This document shows positions 9,662 through 25,864 of a DNA stretch of 64,000 bases, in pieces. The stretch's first letter is position 1, and each line of letters opens with the position of its first letter. Position numbers and translations under genes: made by a program. A model generated the notes under the pieces. The model saw only the letters and a program-made list of their open reading frames with translations, was not told the origin of the DNA and searched no databases. Source of the DNA: Chloroflexota bacterium (GTDB taxonomy: Bacteria; Chloroflexota; Anaerolineae; Aggregatilineales; Phototrophicaceae); assembly GCA_011523735.1 (NCBI GenBank), contig WTGB01000097.1:62001-126000 (forward strand), given 5' to 3'.

Positions 9662-10852
9662 ATGACCAAGCAATTCCAATGGGACGATCCCTTTTTGCTC
9701 AACGATCAACTCTCCGAAGAAGAGCGCATGGTCCGCGATGTCGCCCACGATTACTGCCAGGCCAAGCTGATGCCCCGCGTGCTCGAGGCTAATCGCCATG
9801 AGACCTTCGACCGCGATATCTACTACGAAATGGCTGAGCTCGGCATGCTCGGCGCGACCCTGCCCGAAGACCACGGCGGCGCCGGCTTGAACTACGTCTG
9901 CTACGGCTTGATCGCCCGCGAAGTCGAACGGGTCGATAGCGGCTATCGCAGCGCCATGAGCGTGCAAAGCGCCCTCGTCATGTACCCCATTTACGCCTAC
10001 GGCAGCGACGAACAGCGGGACAAATATCTGCCAAAGCTCATGAGCGGCGAATGGGTCGGCTGCTTCGGCTTGACCGAGCCGGATCATGGCAGCGACCCGG
10101 GCGCCATGGAAACGCGCGCGACCAAAGTCGCCAGCGGCTGGAAGCTGCACGGGAATAAAATGTGGATCACCAATTCACCCATCGCCGATGTCTTCATCGT
10201 CTGGGCGAAAGCCTACGGCGCTGACGACGGCGATGGCGCCATCCGCGGCTTCATTCTCGAGCGCGGCATGGAAGGCTTGTCCGCCCCCGTGATCGAAGGC
10301 AAATTCAGCCTCCGCGCCAGCAGCACCGGCGAAATCGTCATGGACGATGTCTTCGTGCCCGCCGAGAATCTCCTGCCCGGCGCGCGCGGTTTGCGCGGTC
10401 CCTTCGGCTGCCTCAACCGCGCCCGCTATGGCATCGCCTGGGGCGCCCTGGGCGCGGCGGAATTCTGCTGGCACGCCGCCCGCCAATATACGCTGGACCG
10501 CCATCAATTCGGGCGACCGCTGGCGGCCAATCAACTCATTCAATTCAAACTCGCCAACATGATGACCGATATCGCGCTTGGCTTGCAAGGCGCCTTGCGT
10601 GTGGGCCGCCTCTTCGATCAAGACGCAGCCAGTCCGGAAATGATCTCCCTGGTCAAACGCAACTCCTGCGGGGTGGCATTGGATATCGCTCGCATGTCCC
10701 GCGATATGCACGGTGGCAATGGCATCGCCGACGAATTTCATGTCATCCGCCATGTGATGAACCTGGAAGCCGTCAACACCTATGAAGGCACCAGCGATAT
10801 CCACGCCCTCATCCTCGGCCGCGCCCAAACCGGCATCCAGGCTTTTATGTGA
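9662..10852 (+). CDS. gcdH: Glutaryl-CoA dehydrogenase-type acyl-CoA dehydrogenase
   Basis: 396 residues with the full acyl-CoA dehydrogenase fold: N-terminal helical domain, FAD-binding middle domain ([35 protein letters not shown]) and C-terminal helical domain. The end [20 protein letters not shown] carries the catalytic Glu in EGT, in the form typical of glutaryl-CoA dehydrogenases. SMSVQ-like and [19 protein letters not shown] segments and the conserved Arg in RGFILERGM also fit that subfamily. GcdH oxidises and decarboxylates glutaryl-CoA to crotonyl-CoA in lysine/tryptophan catabolism, passing electrons to ETF. It is a single gene here. The product class is firm; glutaryl specificity is likely but not proven. 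Confidence 0.87.
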
Positions 10853-10953: not shown

Positions 10954-11976
10954 ATGTCGGCGAATCGGAATCTGCACAAAGCGAAGTCCAACAAGAAGGA
11001 CGAGTTCTACACGCAACTTGTCGATATTGAAAACGAACTCCGGCATTACACCGACCACTTTCGCGGGAAGGTCGTCTACTGCAACTGCGATGATCCGCGA
11101 GTGAGCAACTTCTTTCATTACTTCGCCTACAACTTCCGCGTGCTCGGACTCAAGAAACTGATTACCACTTGCTACAAGAACCAGCAAATGGATATGTTCA
11201 GCCAGCACGATGCGGAAAAGGCGATCTGGCTGGAATACGATGGGACGGAGAACGAGACCGGCGTTCCCTCAGTCGAAGACATCGGCATTCACTATCTTGA
11301 GGACGATGGCGATTTCAGAAGCGCGGAATGTATCGAGTTGTTAAAGGGCGCCGACATCGTGGTGACAAACCCGCCCTTTTCGCTCTTCCGTGAATATGTC
11401 GCGCAGTTGATCGAGTACGACAAGAAGTTTCTGATTATCGGTCATCAGAACGCGATAAAGTACAAAGAGATTTTCCCGCTGATTAAAAGCAACAGATTGT
11501 GGCTTGGGATTACGCCTCGCGGAAAGGACATGCTGTTTGATGTGCCGAAGGACTACGCGAAAGAACTGGTTGCCACGAAAAAAGAAGGCAGCGCATACAG
11601 GATCGTAGATGGCGTCGTTTATGGAAGGCTCGGAAGCGCAAGCTGGTATACCAATCTGGACTACCGCCAACGCCACGAGGAACTGATTTTATTCAAACGC
11701 TACTCGCCAGAAGAATATCTGAAGTACGACAACTACGATGCGATTGAAGTATCGAGAACCGCCGAGATTCCGATGGATTGGGATTGGGCGATGGGTGTGC
11801 CGATTACATTCTTGAACAAACACAATCCGGATCAGTTTGAGATATTAGGTATTTCGGAAGACAACGGTCGGGGGCAGTCTGCCCAGCTATGGGATGGCAC
11901 TAAACCTCACTGCTATATCAGAGGTCAAAAGAAGTACGCCCGCATTTTCATTCGGCATAGACGAATTGGACGATAA
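10954..11976 (+). CDS. EcoRI-family adenine-specific DNA methyltransferase
   Basis: 340 residues. The N-terminus has a DEFYTQ motif (16-21), typical of M.EcoRI-like enzymes. The catalytic NPPF is at 139-142 in the context GADIVVTNPPFSLFREYV. The C-terminal strand is CYIRGQKKYARIFIR. The family methylates adenine N6 in a palindromic target and normally protects DNA from a cognate nuclease. Here it opens an accessory island; the likely nuclease partner, a DUF262-HNH protein, is nearly 4 kb downstream at 15747, with foreign cassettes in between. A homologue of this gene's very 3' end recurs inside a chimeric remnant at 13821-14024. The start is ATG after a G-rich stretch. Confidence 0.88.
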   Translation: MSANRNLHKAKSNKKDEFYTQLVDIENELRHYTDHFRGKVVYCNCDDPRVSNFFHYFAYNFRVLGLKKLITTCYKNQQMDMFSQHDAEKAIWLEYDGTENETGVPSVEDIGIHYLEDDGDFRSAECIELLKGADIVVTNPPFSLFREYVAQLIEYDKKFLIIGHQNAIKYKEIFPLIKSNRLWLGITPRGKDMLFDVPKDYAKELVATKKEGSAYRIVDGVVYGRLGSASWYTNLDYRQRHEELILFKRYSPEEYLKYDNYDAIEVSRTAEIPMDWDWAMGVPITFLNKHNPDQFEILGISEDNGRGQSAQLWDGTKPHCYIRGQKKYARIFIRHRRIGR

Positions 11977-19319: not shown

Positions 19320-20957
19320 TTAGAGGGTATCCAAGTCGGGATATTGGCGGTGCCAGTCTGCCCCGTCCTGATAGGCTTTGGCGACGGCGAGGGTCTCGGC
19401 TTCCTTGTTGAGCCCGCCGACGAAGGAGATGCTAGTGGGTGTGCGCTTATCTGTGAAGCCGTTGGGCAGGACGACGGTGGGATGCCCGGTGAAGTTGGTG
19501 ATGGGTAGGACGTTTGCGCCGTAGCTGGGCACGATGAAGACATCCACCTGCTGCATCACCCGCGCCATATCCTGCATCAGCAGCGCGCGGATGCGGTTGG
19601 CGTTGATGTATTCGACGGCGGGGATGAAGCGGGCGGCGCGGAAGATGTTGGGCCAGGCGCTATCATCCTGGCGCGCCATCGCATCGACCGAGCCATCGCG
19701 GGTGATGGCATCGAAGGCGGCGGCCGCTTCGGCAGCCAGTATCGTCCACAAGCCGCCGGTATCGCGCTCGGGCAGCTCGATCGGCAACAGCTCGAAACCG
19801 ACTTCACGCATCACATCAAGGGCGGCGATGCTGTTCTCCAGCGTACTGCGATAGAGCGCCTGCTTCTCCTCATCGTCGGTTTCGGCAGCCTCTGGCTCAA
19901 AAGCGCTAGCGACATAGCCGACCTGCAGCGACTGCGGATCGAGAGCCGGGTCCCAACTGAAGGGCTCGGGAGTAATCGTCATGTCTAAGCCATCGGGACC
20001 GAAGATGGCGCTGAAGACGAGGGCGCAATCCTCGACTGAGCGGCACATGGGACCGATCTTGTCCATGCTCCAACTGAGAGCCATGGCGCCGTAGCGGCTG
20101 ACGCGGCCGAAAGTGGGGCGCAAGCCGGTGAGTCCGCAGCGGGTCGAGGGCGAGACGATGCTGCCCAGGGTCTCGGTGCCGATGGAGAAGCCGACCAAGC
20201 CGGCAGCGGTGGCGGCGCCGGGTCCAGCCGATGAGCCGCTGCTGCCCTCGGATGTATCCCAGGGATTGCGAGTCATGCCGCCGTACCAGACATCGCCGTT
20301 GGCCAGCGCGCCGAGGGTCAGCTTGGCGATGAGCACGGCGCCGGCTTCTTCCAGCCGCTGAACGACAGTCGCATCGAGGTCGATGAGCTGGTCCTTGTAG
20401 GGCGCAGCGCCCCATTGGGTGGGATAGCCGCGCGTGGCCAGCAAGTCCTTCGCGCCCCAGGGGATGCCATGCAGTGGACCGCGATAGAGGCCGCGGGCGA
20501 TCTCGCTGTCGGCGCGCGTCGCCTGTTCGATGGCGAGGTCATCGGTGTAGGCGGCGACGCAGAGCAGCTTTTCGTCATAACGCTTGAGGCGGCTCAGGTA
20601 CATCTCGGTCAGTTCCAGCGATGTGACTTGACGGCTGCGGATGAGTTCGGCGAGTTGGGTCACGGTGTAGAAGGCGGCGTCTTCGAGATCGGCGGGGCGG
20701 GATACCGGCGGTTGAGCGCTCATGGCGTAGTTGCGCGGGACGGGGGCGGGATTGGGATCGGCAATATGTACGTTGAAGTTGAGCGCCATGGGCAGGCTGT
20801 TGGGCAGGTCGGCGGCGCGGATGGCGGCGTATTGCTCGCGGCGGCCGCTGACGATTTCGAGCATCTGCTGGCGCTGTTCGGGGCTGAAGTCGAGGCCGAG
20901 CAGGGTTTGGGCGGCGGTGATGTGGTCGGGGGTGATAGGGTCGGCGGGTTGGGTCAT
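19320..20957 (-). CDS. Amidase signature-family hydrolase, 545 aa
   Basis: The Ser-cisSer-Lys catalytic triad of the amidase signature family is recognisable: Lys in GIPWGAKDLLATRG, the Gly/Ser-rich SEGSSGSSAGPGAATAAG, and the nucleophile region GFSIGTETLGSIVSPSTRCG. The N-terminal 120 or so residues are an extension beyond the usual amidase start, with AAQTLLGLDFSPEQRQQM, as in many bacterial family members related to GatA. No gatB or gatC lies nearby, so a stand-alone amidase is more likely than GatA. The substrate is unknown. No signal peptide. Its upstream region (20958-21379) is unusually structured. Confidence 0.88.
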   Translation of the reverse strand: MTQPADPITPDHITAAQTLLGLDFSPEQRQQMLEIVSGRREQYAAIRAADLPNSLPMALNFNVHIADPNPAPVPRNYAMSAQPPVSRPADLEDAAFYTVTQLAELIRSRQVTSLELTEMYLSRLKRYDEKLLCVAAYTDDLAIEQATRADSEIARGLYRGPLHGIPWGAKDLLATRGYPTQWGAAPYKDQLIDLDATVVQRLEEAGAVLIAKLTLGALANGDVWYGGMTRNPWDTSEGSSGSSAGPGAATAAGLVGFSIGTETLGSIVSPSTRCGLTGLRPTFGRVSRYGAMALSWSMDKIGPMCRSVEDCALVFSAIFGPDGLDMTITPEPFSWDPALDPQSLQVGYVASAFEPEAAETDDEEKQALYRSTLENSIAALDVMREVGFELLPIELPERDTGGLWTILAAEAAAAFDAITRDGSVDAMARQDDSAWPNIFRAARFIPAVEYINANRIRALLMQDMARVMQQVDVFIVPSYGANVLPITNFTGHPTVVLPNGFTDKRTPTSISFVGGLNKEAETLAVAKAYQDGADWHRQYPDLDTL

Positions 20958-20998
20958 GGCGGGTTCCTCGCGTTTTGTTGGAGGATTCTATTGTAAAG

Positions 20999-21108
20999 GG
21001 AAATATTTTTTGTCCAATAAGGTATTGGAATTCCCGGAAAGGGATGCAGGCAAGTGTCCGGATTTTGCCGGAGATTTCCCGTAGATGGAAATATTTTTTC
21101 TACGGGAA
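20999..21108. repeat. Structured intergenic segment with 13-bp direct repeats and hairpins
   Basis: GGAAATATTTTTT occurs twice, at 20999-21011 and 21087-21099. The second copy forms the loop of a perfect 10-bp inverted repeat, TTCCCGTAGA...TCTACGGGAA (21076-21108). A smaller inverted repeat, CCAATA-AGG-TATTGG, lies at 21014-21028. The 420-bp gap 20958-21379 has no gene that I can support. Confidence 0.6.
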
Positions 21109-21239
21109 GGTACGGAAGCGGGCTGGGCTATGGGGATTGTTAAGCAGCGGGTGTTGAGGTCATTTTAGCATGGGTTGGGTGTGGGTGTCTAGAGCAAATG
21201 TTCGGGTGTTAGGGTTTTGGGTTTTTTCTTCTTTGTTTG

Positions 21240-21275
21240 CCACAGAGGGCGCGGAGTTTTTTTGAGGGCACGGAC
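21240..21275 (+). repeat. CACAGAG-type intergenic repeat, copy 1
   Basis: CCACAGAGGGCGCGGAG, then GAGGGCACGG. Related copies of this ACAGAG-rich element lie at 30573-30600, 31531-31570 (opposite orientation) and 50791-50813, always outside genes. Confidence 0.55.
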
Positions 21276-21379
21276 AAGACTAATACCTAATGTCCACAAG
21301 GCGCCCATAGGGAGGCTAGCAAGTATGCTATGTGAATTAGTGAGTGGATAGTCGCAGAATTAGACTTTGGCCATCTGCT

Positions 21380-22843
21380 TTAGAGTTTACTCGCTGGAGG
21401 CTTCTTCTTCCCATCTACGTAGACTACGGTTGGCACTCGTTGGTTCTCAAAATCCGCATACGAAATCACGTTTTCTAACTCCGCCCATCTTTCGTCAGAA
21501 CAACCTCCGACGTCGACAATGACGAATATTGAATGCTGTGTCTGTTCTGCCTTCTTATATTCTTCAAGCTGAGTCGTAAATCCGTGCACTAGTCGCTTGT
21601 TTGAAGATAGCTTCATTTCCGTAAGAACTCTTATATTATAACCTTTGCTAATCTTTAAGTCTACATGTCCACGTCCAGAATTTGTTTCTGGACTGATATC
21701 TAGATTATTCGCTTGACAGTATCCATCTGCTATTCCAAAAAATAGAGCTTGCGCAGCTTCTTCGTGCTTCGGAATAGTACATGCTCTATCTTGATACAGT
21801 AGTTTGTGCAAGCCATTGTTTTCAACCAATCGCTTGAAGTGATTGCAGATCCGCAAGACCAATTTGACAACGTCTTCAGCCGTTGGATTTGTGGGAAGCG
21901 CTAGCTGTATAGGATAGTCGCGGACGACTTGCATGGCTTGATCAAACCAATTGCGCAGTCCCAATGGATCAAGCGCCAAGTCATACGCGTCGGGGGACGA
22001 ATTCTGATAAAACCGTATGAATCTCTCGAAGAATTCTGGGTTATTGAGAATAGCACGCTTGTACACCCACTTTGGCGTCCGTCGTTTACTCCACACGTCA
22101 CCGATGATCTGGTTCAGTTCCTTTCGCAAATCCTGATTAAATGCAACGACGCGACCGATGTCCTGATATGAATGGGCTAACGGCAGATGATTTAGTACAT
22201 CCTTAGGAACGAGAATTATGGGCGCTCGACTGTGAGGATTCTGAGGAAGTACGTACCCCATGTCCGCGCGCACACGTGGAATGCTCGAGCAGACGCCGAT
22301 ATCATTGAATATCTGACTCGAGTACGCTAGCAAGTCTGGCATTATGATGTTTGCGATCATGTCGCAGATACGATCCGCTCCGATATCCTTCTCAAACAGA
22401 CCCATAACTTCAAATAATTCCGGATGCTCATGTCCAGCATCAATTATAATTTTGGCCGTTGTGAGCATCTCTGCACGCAGTTCTTCACCGATGCCACTAC
22501 CATCAGTTGAGCCACTGCAATATCCAATACAGAGGCCTCTTACCTCGGGAAAGTCCAATATGTTGTCCGCGCGGCGCCAAAAGTAGTCACCGGTAGTCTG
22601 CGACAAGGAAAGCAGTGTGATTACTTTCGAGAAGCGATCTCGAATACGCTGATAGGACTCCTTTAGCTCAGGAGCGGCAGTTTTCTTGAGCAATCTAGGA
22701 TCTATGAACAGCTTCGTATCTTCATCGAGGAATCCATTAAAGGCACCAGTGCCATCAAGTACTTCTGGTTTAACACCCAGATAATCGCAAATTCGTTCCG
22801 TCACTTGAGTCCTTTTGAGTTCTTTTTCAGATTTCGGATACAT
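21380..22843 (-). CDS. Predicted PD-(D/E)XK nuclease-domain protein, candidate stand-alone defence gene
   Basis: 487 residues, no named family recognised. The C-terminus has the nuclease-fold signature D395 (RGHVDLKI), E409-M-K411 (VLTEMKLS) and a following helix with Q425 (TTQLEEYKKAEQ). The order is that of PD-(D/E)XK enzymes. The N-terminal 350 residues are mixed alpha/beta, with FNGFLDEDTKLFIDPRLL near 35-52. The coding sequence is lower in G+C than its neighbours, and the gene is isolated between an amidase and a copper operon, with repeats on both sides. Nuclease activity and a defence role are inferences. Confidence 0.65.
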   Translation of the reverse strand: MYPKSEKELKRTQVTERICDYLGVKPEVLDGTGAFNGFLDEDTKLFIDPRLLKKTAAPELKESYQRIRDRFSKVITLLSLSQTTGDYFWRRADNILDFPEVRGLCIGYCSGSTDGSGIGEELRAEMLTTAKIIIDAGHEHPELFEVMGLFEKDIGADRICDMIANIIMPDLLAYSSQIFNDIGVCSSIPRVRADMGYVLPQNPHSRAPIILVPKDVLNHLPLAHSYQDIGRVVAFNQDLRKELNQIIGDVWSKRRTPKWVYKRAILNNPEFFERFIRFYQNSSPDAYDLALDPLGLRNWFDQAMQVVRDYPIQLALPTNPTAEDVVKLVLRICNHFKRLVENNGLHKLLYQDRACTIPKHEEAAQALFFGIADGYCQANNLDISPETNSGRGHVDLKISKGYNIRVLTEMKLSSNKRLVHGFTTQLEEYKKAEQTQHSIFVIVDVGGCSDERWAELENVISYADFENQRVPTVVYVDGKKKPPASKL

Positions 22844-22959
22844 GCGTAAAGGCGATCAAGCCTTACACGTTGGTCAGTATAGCCCAGCTAGGATGCACTC
22901 TAGGAATTGAAGACAGTAAATGGCCAATTCTGAGTAAATTCTATTAAGTTTCTTACGAT

Positions 22960-23052
22960 GTTGCTTGCCTCTTCCCACGCAAGCGCAGCGAATTGGTCAC
23001 CACGAACACGGACGAGAAGGCCATTACGGCGGCGGCGAACATGGGCAGCGGA
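22960..23052 (-). pseudogene. Remnant of a second copA 3' end
   Basis: On the minus strand this reads GAPLPMFAAAVMAFSSVFVV, continuing TNSLRLRGKRQATS-stop. It matches the last residues of the CopA encoded at 23102 (GLIPMFAAAAMAFSSVFVVT) with about 85% base identity by eye. Only this C-terminal tail is present. A GGGCGAC repeat (23067-23091) lies between the remnant and the intact gene. It is either the end of a decayed tandem copA or a local duplication. Confidence 0.8.
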
Positions 23053-23066
23053 GCGCCATAAACTAC

Positions 23067-23091
23067 GGGCGACCCACCGGGTCGCCCCTAC
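23067..23091. repeat. GGGCGAC palindromic repeat, copy 3
   Basis: Perfect 9-bp arms GGGCGACCC-ACC-GGGTCGCCC followed by CTAC. The core is identical to the copy at 31467-31491. It sits between copA and the copA 3' remnant. Confidence 0.8.
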
Positions 23092-23101
23092 AAATCGGTA
23101 G

Positions 23102-25564
23102 TTATGAGGCGATTCGCTTTCCGCGCAGGCGCAACGAATTGGTCACCACGAACACGGACGAGAAGGCCATGGCCGCAGCGGCGAACATGGGGATCAGGCC
23201 GCCGAGCATGGCGACGGGGATCAGCACGATGTTGTAGATGAAAGCCCAGAAGAGGTTCTGGTGGATCGTGCGCAGAGTCACTTGGCTCAGGGCGATCGCA
23301 GCCGCAACCGCGTTCAGGTCGCCGCGGACGAGGGTGACATCAGCCGCTTCGATGGCGATATCGGTGCCGCCGCCGATAGCGAAGCCGATATCGGCTTGAG
23401 CCAGAGCCGGGGCGTCGTTGATGCCATCGCCGACCATGGCGACGCGCGCGCCTTCCCGCTGGAGTTGCTCGACGGCGCCCACTTTATCGGCCGGCAGGAC
23501 TTCCGCCAGGACGCGCCTGATGCCGACTTCGCGGGCGATGGCGTCGGCGGTTTGTTGATTGTCGCCGGTGATCATCGTGACGTCAAAACCGCGCTCACCC
23601 AGAGATTTGATGGCAGCGGCCGAGCTGGGTTTGAGTTGGTCGCCGATCGCGATTGCGCCGGCGAGGGTGGAATCCAGGGCGAGCAGAACTACCGTGTTGC
23701 CGCGCGCGCTCATTCGGCTAATATCGTCGGCGAGGGGGCTGAGGTCGATGTTGCGCTGGCGCATGAAGCTCGGGCTGCCGATGAGCAGGGCGCGGTCAGC
23801 GACGGTCGCGCTGAGTCCGCGGCCGGGATGCGCCTCGAAGGCATCTACCGGAAGGGGGTTGATGCCGCGGGCTTTGGCGGCATTCACCACCGCTGAGGCG
23901 AGCGGATGTTCGCTGCTGCTTTCGGCGGAGGCGCTGAATTGAAGGAGGCTGTGTTCGTCGAAGTCGGGCGCGGCTACTAGCTCGGTCACGCTGGGTTTGC
24001 CTTGGGTGACCGTGCCGGTTTTGTCCAGCAGGATGGTCGTCAGCGAGGCGGCGCGCTCGAGGGCTTCGCTGCTGCGGAAGAGGATGCCGGCTTCGGCGCC
24101 GCGGCCCGTGCCGACCATGATGGCGGTGGGCGTGGCCAGACCGAGGGCGCAGGGGCAGGCGATGACCAGCACGGCGATCATGTTGAGGATGGCTGTCGGC
24201 AGGTCCGCGCCGCCAATGGTCAGCCAGCCTAGAAGCGTGAGCAGCGCCAGGACGATGACGAGTGGCACAAAGTAGGCGGAGACACGGTCGGCAATCGCTT
24301 GAATCGGCGCTTTGCTGCCTTGAGCCGCTTCCACCAGGCGGATGATCTGCGCCAGGACGGTGTCGCGGCCGACGCGCTGGGCTTCGATGATCAGTCTTCC
24401 TTGCTGATTGATGGTCCCGCCGTAGACTTCGGCAGCGGCCGATTTGTCCACCGGCAGACTTTCGCCAGTGAGCATGGATTCGTCGACGGCGGAGCGTCCG
24501 TCGGTCACGATGGCGTCGACCGGGATGCGCTCGCCCGGCTTGACCAGCAGCAGGTCGCCCGGCGCGACTTCGTCGATGGGGATGGACTTCTCTTTGCCTT
24601 CGCTGAGGAGCGTAGCGGTCTTGGGCGCCAAGCCCATCAGCTTCTTGATGGCGTCGCTGGTTCTTCCTTTGGCGCGCGCTTCCAGCAGTTTGCCCAGGGT
24701 TATCAGCGTGAGGATAACGGCGGTTGATTCGAAATAGTCGGATTTGCCGACCACATCGGAGAATCCGAAGGCGATGCCGAGCAGGACGATGATGCCGTAG
24801 ACATAAGCCGCGATGGAGCCCATCGCCACCAGCACATCCATATTGGCGCTGCCGTTGCGCAGGGACTTGACCGCGCCGCTGAGGTACTGCCCCCCCAGCA
24901 GCAGCATGACGGGCGTGGCCAGCGCGCCGAAGATGAAGAGCCAGATATCGTCCGCCAGGAAAGCGAAGTTGTCCATCAGGAAAGGGATCTGGTGGGTGAA
25001 GTGCCGCGCCATGCTGAGGATGGTCAGCGGGATGGTGAAGATGGCGCCGATTTTGACCAGGCGGGCTTGGCGATCGATCTCGGCTTGGCGAACGGCCGCT
25101 TCGTGGTCTTCGGGCGCATGCGAGTCGGATGTGTCGATGACGCCATAGCCAGCGCGCTCGACGGCGTCGACCAGGTCATGGCGGCGGGTCGCACCGGGCA
25201 GATAAGATACGGTCGCCTTTTCGCTGGCGAGGTTGACATTGGCGCTGATGACGCCGTCGGCTTTGCTCAAGGCGCGGGATACGTTCTTCTGGCACATGGC
25301 GCAGGTCATGCCAGTGATCGGCAAATCGATAGTAGCGGCGGCGACGCCGTAGCCGGAGCCCTCCAGCCGCTCGATGAGATCGCCCGCGCTCAGGCGGTCA
25401 GTATCGTAGTCGACGGTCGCTTTTTCGGTGGCCAGGTTGACGCTGACATCGGCGACGCCATCGGCGCGTTTCAGGCTGCGCTCGACATTTTTGACGCACA
25501 TGGCGCAGGTCATGCCTGTGACTGGCAGTGTGATCTGTTTTATTGTCATGGTTGGCGTCTCCAT
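23102..25564 (-). CDS. copA: Cu(I)-exporting P1B-type ATPase
   Basis: 820 residues, with two N-terminal HMA domains (GMTCAMCVKNVERSLKRADG and GMTCAMCQKNVSRAL). Next come the membrane segments, the ion-binding CPC in VIACPCALGLATPTAIMVG, the phosphorylation site DKTGTVTQGKPS, the TGES actuator motif (SMLTGESLPVDK), and GDGINDAPALAQADIGFAIG. The C-terminal helices carry the Met-Ser pair (MAFSSVFVVTNSLRLRG) typical of copper ATPases. It exports Cu(I) from the cytoplasm. The start codon directly abuts the stop of the csoR-type repressor gene, so the two form one operon controlled by copper. Confidence 0.97.
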   Translation of the reverse strand: METPTMTIKQITLPVTGMTCAMCVKNVERSLKRADGVADVSVNLATEKATVDYDTDRLSAGDLIERLEGSGYGVAAATIDLPITGMTCAMCQKNVSRALSKADGVISANVNLASEKATVSYLPGATRRHDLVDAVERAGYGVIDTSDSHAPEDHEAAVRQAEIDRQARLVKIGAIFTIPLTILSMARHFTHQIPFLMDNFAFLADDIWLFIFGALATPVMLLLGGQYLSGAVKSLRNGSANMDVLVAMGSIAAYVYGIIVLLGIAFGFSDVVGKSDYFESTAVILTLITLGKLLEARAKGRTSDAIKKLMGLAPKTATLLSEGKEKSIPIDEVAPGDLLLVKPGERIPVDAIVTDGRSAVDESMLTGESLPVDKSAAAEVYGGTINQQGRLIIEAQRVGRDTVLAQIIRLVEAAQGSKAPIQAIADRVSAYFVPLVIVLALLTLLGWLTIGGADLPTAILNMIAVLVIACPCALGLATPTAIMVGTGRGAEAGILFRSSEALERAASLTTILLDKTGTVTQGKPSVTELVAAPDFDEHSLLQFSASAESSSEHPLASAVVNAAKARGINPLPVDAFEAHPGRGLSATVADRALLIGSPSFMRQRNIDLSPLADDISRMSARGNTVVLLALDSTLAGAIAIGDQLKPSSAAAIKSLGERGFDVTMITGDNQQTADAIAREVGIRRVLAEVLPADKVGAVEQLQREGARVAMVGDGINDAPALAQADIGFAIGGGTDIAIEAADVTLVRGDLNAVAAAIALSQVTLRTIHQNLFWAFIYNIVLIPVAMLGGLIPMFAAAAMAFSSVFVVTNSLRLRGKRIAS

Positions 25565-25864
25565 CTAACTGTTGATCAGCTTGAGGATTTTTTGCAAGTC
25601 GGAGGCGGCGCGGGCCGGGTCGTCGGTCATCTCCGCTTGCAGCGAGTTTTCGATGTAGCAGTCGAAGAGATGGTTGATCAAGCTGGTCATGCCTTTTTCG
25701 ATGGTGCGGGCGCGCAGGACGCGCTCCTCACAGCTGCCGGCGTCGGCCGCGATCATGTCTTCCAGCGCGGTCAGTTGTCCCTGGATGCGCCGAATGCGAT
25801 TGATGGTCTTGCGGTTGAAGCCCTGCCGTTCAGCCTGCGCCAACTGTATCATTTGAGATGCCAT
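25565..25864 (-). CDS. csoR: CsoR/DUF156-family metal-sensing repressor
   Basis: 99 residues, all-helical CsoR fold. The predicted Cu(I) ligands are Cys in AGSCEERVLRAR, His in INHLFDCY and Cys three residues after the Leu-Phe of that motif. NRIRRIQGQLTALEDMI is the usual DNA-binding first helix. The stop is immediately followed by the copA start. A palindrome (25885-25900) lies 20 bp upstream of its start and is a likely operator, giving autoregulation with copA. Copper binding would release the repressor. Confidence 0.92.
   Translation of the reverse strand: MASQMIQLAQAERQGFNRKTINRIRRIQGQLTALEDMIAADAGSCEERVLRARTIEKGMTSLINHLFDCYIENSLQAEMTDDPARAASDLQKILKLINS

Follow-up and report, generated by a model that had tools for sequence, protein, structure and literature searches.

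The gap between copA and an amidase gene is a defense hotspot in a genus of Chloroflexota, and the gene that fills it in the genome studied here likely encodes a one-gene, infection-gated anti-phage nuclease that was acquired there horizontally. The window, by which we mean the whole stretch of 64,000 nucleotides that was analyzed, had been the subject of a preliminary description that guessed at a defense system; the guess now has a stronger context behind it than was known then, a slot shared with defense cargo. From that context, a function of the gene in defense appears probable. Cleavage of DNA by its C-terminal domain is about as probable; that the N-terminal domain serves as a sensor or gate is somewhat better than an even prospect. 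As a kind, that of the PD-(D/E)XK defense nucleases, the gene is ordinary, and what is new is its unnamed family, its unmatched N-terminal domain and the hotspot in which it lies. An anonymous gene is thereby placed in a family that is widespread (one scan yielded 471 relatives) and has a front domain with no structural match, and the slot becomes a natural collection of defense systems drawn from a single genus, the named members of which are here metagenome-assembled genomes.

The nuclease gene and its surroundings

The features of the region are collected in Table 1. A 487-residue protein had been described at this position, and the open reading frame list of the window bears it out and adds that it lies on the minus strand. 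Alignment places the N-terminus of close relatives about 13 residues downstream of the called ATG, where a GTG at 22804 is preceded by an AGGA box 5 nt upstream and would give a product of 474 amino acids. Because the close relatives begin at this later point and the AGGA box fits, the GTG is probably the start of the gene, as judged from the sequence; residue numbers throughout nevertheless follow the 487-codon form.

Table 1. Coordinates of the nuclease gene, its domains and the borders of the cargo slot in the window.
Feature	Position	Strand	Details
Solitary nuclease gene	21380..22843	-	487 codons from ATG; phrog_30194 E 5.4e-108, residues 16-486
N-terminal domain, residues ~14-256	22076..22804	-	confident model; invariant E100, G107, G115, D157, D161; PDC-M36A match
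C-terminal PD-(D/E)XK domain (predicted), residues ~320-487	21383..21886	-	E341, E361, E386, D395, E409-x-K411, Q425, Y429; conserved S-A-S tail
Low-GC cargo slot, amidase to copA	20958..23101	.	46.8% G+C; variable across genus
Degenerate extra copy of copA 3' end, between copA and cargo	22971..23057	-	85% over 87 nt to 23117-23203
copA-like copper P-type ATPase, left hotspot border	23102..25564	-	match in 34/34 genus genomes
Amidase (cluster c1), right hotspot border	19320..20957	-	reached in 26/32 regions

The gene is single-copy in its own genome by a genome search, and the slot (20958-23101) has no second open reading frame of at least 80 aa lying wholly inside it and outside the nuclease gene. 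The observation that the gene is poorer in G+C than its neighbors holds, with 45.6% against 63.8% in copA and 64.7% in the amidase, and 57.9% over the whole window. Its placement between an amidase and a copper operon is likewise correct, the far flank consisting of the copper P-type ATPase and a small CsoR-like gene (23102-25864); the names of these neighbors, the amidase included, are read from the sequence. The heading "housekeeping context" under which this arrangement was first described is misleading, since the gene occupies a variable slot between ordinary genes that is a defense hotspot.

A defense hotspot between copA and the amidase

The side downstream of copA was read in 31 of the 33 other genomes of the genus (G529 and G004 were left out, where contigs end or the gene is partial), which together with the window gives 32 regions. 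The amidase was reached in 26 of them; it was not within 7 kb in G010 and G526, and the contig ended first in G003, G005, G018 and G527. Three of the 26 sites are empty, with gaps of 90 bp in G528, 186 bp in G022 and 72 bp in G015 by first-start ORF calls; judged by the junction sequences, the true gaps may reach about 0.3 kb. The remaining 23 are filled by 1.1-3.5 kb of cargo (lengths from first-start ORF calls, with an error of up to about 0.3 kb) having a G+C content of 42-53% vs 61-69% in the flanks.

A survey of the neighborhood for defense islands had been proposed in the preliminary description, and among the sister slots, annotated by one representative per cluster with G532 and G527 outside the scan, we found Thoeris ThsA and ThsB (G006 and G023), a pAgo with SIR2 (G011; a pAgo cluster in G018 is cut by the contig end), DUF4297-HerA (G002 and G008), and a CD-NTase cyclase of the CBASS type together with a methyltransferase-HNH protein (G012). 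Other slots hold an ATPase of 969 aa that partly matches Ppl (G014, G019 and G005), RhuM/PDC-S05 (G017, with the same cluster in G021), and a trypsin-like protein with weak matches to Avs1b and LmuA (G526). Six genomes (G003, G007, G016, G020, G530 and G531) carry a PDC-M19A-like gene (E 2.3e-14), accompanied in five of them by a second small gene, and the present nuclease is the cargo of G525, G533 and the window. The location by itself is no proof of defense, since the cargo of G013, a Rieske oxygenase with a TetR regulator (L168:4679-6409), is not defense-like and several cargoes are unrecognized or outside the scan: the three genes in G010 and G024 had no PADLOC match, nor did the one gene scanned of the two in G009. 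No integrase or transposase was recognized among the 20 cargo proteins scanned, in which a single sub-threshold resolvase-HTH match fell in a TetR regulator.

Through their location, the cassettes of the slot with weak or no PADLOC match (clusters c6-c8, c16-c18 and c22) become candidate new systems. The cassette of G530 (L169:920-1818) has genes of 184 and 112 aa, the first matching PDC-M19A only weakly and the second having no match; this cassette of six genomes is a candidate defense system or toxin-antitoxin pair. The three-gene cassette of G024 (L170:434-2739), also found in G010, lies on the opposite strand with one weak SH3 domain, and is by its location a candidate new system. A DUF6414 protein was also seen in G017 (L182:5639-6541), beside RhuM/PDC-S05, and has a cluster relative in G001 (L179:2070-3113), whose cargo likewise counts among those not defense-like or unrecognized.

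The core defense hotspots of Pseudomonas aeruginosa reportedly hold variable defense cargo at fixed places between core genes. The copA-amidase hotspot resembles them in having variable cargo at a fixed place and differs in its phylum and flanks, in a cargo of mostly one to three genes, and in frequent copies of the copA 3' end. In the literature library searched, no paper on defense-system hotspots in Chloroflexota was found, copper-gene-linked ones included.

The C-terminal nuclease domain

The signature D395, E409-x-K411 and Q425 had been noted at the start, and these residues stand at the positions given and are kept in 105-109 of the 109 rows of an alignment of the window protein with 108 relatives: D395 in 105 (96%), E409 in 107 (98%), K411 in all 109 (100%) and Q425 in 105 (96%). 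E341 (108), E361 (108), E386 (107) and the tail serine S485 (107) are kept as well. The GTDB and IMG/VR loci were located by patterns covering L-F-I-D-P-x-L-L, G-x-D-x-I-S-D or N-x-G-x-G-x-x-D-x-K, and because part of the rows were found in this way, conservation at the pattern positions, D395 included, is somewhat favored.

An AlphaFold2 model of the full protein, built from a 92-row alignment, had a mean pLDDT of 86.1 and a pTM of 0.86. Residues ~320-480 of this model aligned best to BstYI (Z 8.6, rmsd 3.6, 130 residues), followed by CinB (Z 8.3), BamHI (7.8) and OkrAI (7.7), Z values of 7-8 being modest and possibly unspecific; McrC was likewise among the structures that resemble the predicted domain. 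Foldseek alone gave nothing at E <= 0.001. The top 26 rows of structural matches are, we take it, all PD-(D/E)XK proteins, and on this ground, together with the motif, we assign the domain to the PD-(D/E)XK nucleases, a predicted restriction-endonuclease-like fold being supported by the model. The motif, the predicted fold and the one-gene slot agree with the first characterization of the product as a stand-alone PD-(D/E)XK protein.

Pfam matches of family members are weak (at most 3 of 92 members, the best being PDDEXK_9 at E 7.8e-05); such PDDEXK_9-type matches fit a nuclease and are insufficient, at the level of sequence comparison, as a family assignment. The window protein itself matched nothing in Pfam at E 10 and had no significant match in NCBIfam, where a hit to EruA (E 0.24) reached 9.4 bits, far below the cut-off of 1000, and was discarded. 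Matches to PDB sequences, by single-sequence and profile search, were short or to designed proteins, the best of them (E 9.2e-05 over 37 positions) to a fimbrial fusion, and were judged spurious.

Shedu (SduA, DUF4263) is a single-gene PD-(D/E)XK defense nuclease with an N-terminal regulatory part. The window gene is like Shedu in its one-gene nuclease layout, but its protein lacks a match to the SduA and DUF4263 profiles in PADLOC and Pfam at E <= 10. In the DefensePredictor study, PD-(D/E)XK domains occur in 13 of the 31 members of one validated group, whose proteins are otherwise different. The same study speaks for caution on defense, since among 24 loci that scored low in the model and have remote homology to defense proteins, six encoding PD-(D/E)XK nucleases, only one was protective (PMC13092281).

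The N-terminal domain and the modularity of the family

The long N-terminal part had been called unknown, and the structure prediction that was suggested for it has now been run. Modeled alone, the domain gave a confident structure (pLDDT 89.7, pTM 0.86) with no match among PDB folds, the best Foldseek E being 1.4 and the best VIA Z 3.9; on the strength of a model, the fold is only apparently new, short of proof. E100, G107, G115, D157 and D161 are invariant in all 109 rows, D42 and R240 are nearly so, and there is a flexible G-S-G-x-G loop. The sole match of the window protein in the defense library is to PDC-M36A of PADLOC and is restricted to this domain (residues 16-223 against positions 6-216 of 457, E 2.6e-13), indicating that the two N-terminal domains are homologous. 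According to PMC11811056, the PDC families are candidates from Payne et al. 2021 that are unpublished. In the literature library searched, no paper names PDC-M36, and among the papers listed there was none on the present nuclease family.

Both domains occur together in 110 ORFs of the family survey, and the exceptions suggest that they are separable. Four distant relatives (L028, L030, L031 and L032) have the N-terminal domain without the present type of nuclease; all four match PDC-M36A, L030 over positions 16-454 of 457. Three of these (L028, L030 and L032) have, as judged by eye, a different D...E-x-K nuclease-like C-terminus, and the L031 protein is shorter and ends without one. A PDC-M36B gene adjoins the genes of L030 and L031, and the two neighbors tested at L028 do not match PDC-M36B. 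The window gene thus differs from PDC-M36, in which PDC-M36B stood beside two of the four PDC-M36A genes seen, in being partnerless and having its own nuclease type; the C-terminal part of PDC-M36A is not in the window protein, whose match stops at residue 223. Conversely, the present nuclease domain follows an unrelated N-terminus in two proteins (L011:4939-6501 and L033:4858-7077), the first of which has a C-terminal end resembling the S-A-S tail, and in L004, L008 and L009 the nuclease residues are altered or partly deleted and the N-terminal domain is retained. In the remaining exceptions to the two-domain layout (L075, L132 and L134) the gene is broken or cut. This modularity favors the N-terminal domain as the controlling part and the nuclease as the effector, a division of labor that we infer from sequence comparison.

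The mechanism we propose is that the gene would arrive by horizontal exchange at the copA-amidase hotspot, that the N-terminal domain would hold the nuclease off and switch it on once infection is sensed, directly or via a ligand, and that the C-terminal PD-(D/E)XK domain would then cut DNA with a divalent metal, the target being either phage DNA only or all DNA, as in abortive infection. We favor gating because a solitary nuclease without a methyltransferase of its own must stay harmless until needed, and gating would mean that no protective methyltransferase is required. Alternatively, the protein might be a type IV-like or modification-sensing restriction enzyme, the N-terminal domain directly recognizing a modification or sequence of phage DNA and the C-terminal domain cutting it with no separate sensing. 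A solitary nuclease with no methyltransferase of its own in the slot is consistent with such an enzyme, as is the likeness of the predicted nuclease domain to restriction endonucleases and McrC, but the N-terminal domain has no match to any DNA-recognition fold, and its conserved acidic residues (D42, E100, D157 and D161) would seem unneeded on a plain DNA-binding surface. We therefore regard this alternative as unlikely, though of all the competing explanations it survives best.

Distribution of the family and its neighbors

A full-length match (residues 16-486) puts the window protein in the same family as phrog_30194 (PHROGs v4, function unknown). That entry is a viral protein cluster without a function, and here the family extends across bacterial phyla and into a chromosomal defense hotspot. 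When GTDB contigs were scanned with an alignment, 471 relatives were confirmed, the best 80 of which, by record title, are from Chloroflexota, Pseudomonadota, Bacillota, Bacteroidota, Cyanobacteria, Planctomycetes and others. Single-sequence scans of genome and viral contigs found no relatives. E. coli genomes searched with the DNA of one Pseudomonas relative gave no match, a search that distant members could escape. From these comparisons it is a cross-phylum family with no Pfam or NCBIfam name, in which an N-terminal domain without a detected PDB fold is joined to a predicted nuclease.

The gene also occurs on mobile elements, with matches in 15 plasmid records and 17 loci in IMG/VR; GenBank phage records gave no match. 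In four IMG/VR contigs (L122, L123, L124 and L129, one of which was scanned) a phage integrase is encoded on the same strand, no more than 120 bp upstream. These occurrences, with the adjacent integrases and the PHROG family, are what one might expect of a selfish or maintenance gene that serves mobile elements in phage or plasmid competition, or through a post-segregational effect, and is not a host defense. In the Chloroflexota genus, however, the gene sits in a chromosomal slot common to established defense systems, whose scanned cargo proteins contained no recognized integrase or transposase, and we hold a purely selfish role to be improbable. Defense genes are common on mobile elements, so that this explanation overlaps with that of a gated defense nuclease.

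As a separate observation, seven of the eight IMG/VR contigs L119-L126 are only ~10-14 kb long, and two of these seven, L122 and L124, have the adjacent integrase; the short viral contigs may be phage satellites.

Across 119 loci there was no constant partner gene, the commonest neighbor cluster being a serine recombinase (12 of 119). Among the nearest neighbors (110 of 161 scanned with PADLOC) were SoFic, Shedu SduA, type I and III restriction enzymes, DRT, AbiLi and several PDC candidates, each defense family in only one or two members (25 of 93 families listed) and as raw counts without a baseline. A GIY-YIG-type gene is directly beside the nuclease gene in three of the 119 loci (L005, L098 and L118) and 3.2 kb off in L099, in L005 the annotation also places a DNA methyltransferase and a helicase upstream of it, and MmeI-like and HsdM/HsdR-like neighbor clusters occur at five loci each (one representative of each scanned). 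Such neighbors would suit a type II-like restriction endonuclease that relies on a methyltransferase encoded nearby or elsewhere, but no partner gene recurs widely and the window slot holds one gene only and no methyltransferase, making this very improbable. A type II restriction-modification system with its own methyltransferase is unsupported for the same reasons.

Exchange history of the slot

The nuclease gene is present in three of the 34 genomes of the genus, and the 31 others, with listed completeness of 83-97%, have no match. When 14 cargo labels (the empty slot counted as one of them) are mapped onto a copA protein tree built from 29 of the 34 genomes, they need 23 changes vs a shuffled mean of 22.0; cargo type is thus scattered about as it would be at random. 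The three nuclease carriers need three changes, which strongly supported branches force; the tree serves as a proxy, since copA borders the exchanged stretch and may have undergone recombination of its own. The window's copA shares 86-87% identity with its counterparts in G014 and G010, whose slots hold other cargo, and 80% and 75% with those of the nuclease carriers G525 and G533. Because carriers are so few, three changes are needed, and different cargo fills most of the other slots, the distribution is one of swapping at the hotspot rather than of conserved inheritance. Conserved vertical inheritance in the same neighborhood had been named in the preliminary description as the finding that would speak against its guess, and it is not borne out: the gene does stand at the same place in two relatives, but in only three of 34 genomes and with three changes. 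A vertically inherited housekeeping nuclease, for repair or linked to copper, could account for the shared position behind copA in these three genomes, but with the gene not found in 31 of 34, its low G+C content, the forced changes on the copA tree and other cargo at the same place, we reject this explanation as scarcely credible. A single old gain followed by many replacements is a less likely alternative history of the gene.

The nucleases of the other two carriers are 62% and 56% identical to that of the window, and the next relatives in the alignment at most 48%. Since the three are more alike than they are to the next relatives, the cassette may be passed around within the genus, as opposed to coming in several times from elsewhere.

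Just inside copA, 10 of the 32 regions (E <= 1e-3) contain extra copies of its 3' end, and all three empty sites lack them; of the three nuclease carriers, G525 has no such copy, whereas the window and G533 have one each. The copies look like the scar of cassettes that bring their own copA tail, whose donor cannot be named because the best matches are 85-89% to several genomes, its own included. A more far-reaching conjecture, which we consider possible though doubtful, has two parts. The N-terminal domain would be a new fold, itself an enzyme or a ligand-binding sensor that switches on interchangeable nucleases, in a class common to the one-gene family and the two-gene PDC-M36; and the copA 3' end would be a recombination landing site for integrase-free exchange of cassettes.

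A palindrome-like stretch, GTAGGGGCGACC...GGTCGCCC, lies just after copA in the window (between 23058 and 23101), G022 and G533, that is, in three of the six junctions inspected, and is possibly an interspersed repeat.

Other features of the window

Further low-GC stretches of the window begin near 10451, 30101 and 41651, and a 340-aa open reading frame at 10954-11976 had no PDB sequence match. Upstream of the amidase, at 20993-21112, there are two 32-nt direct repeats that are 78% alike.
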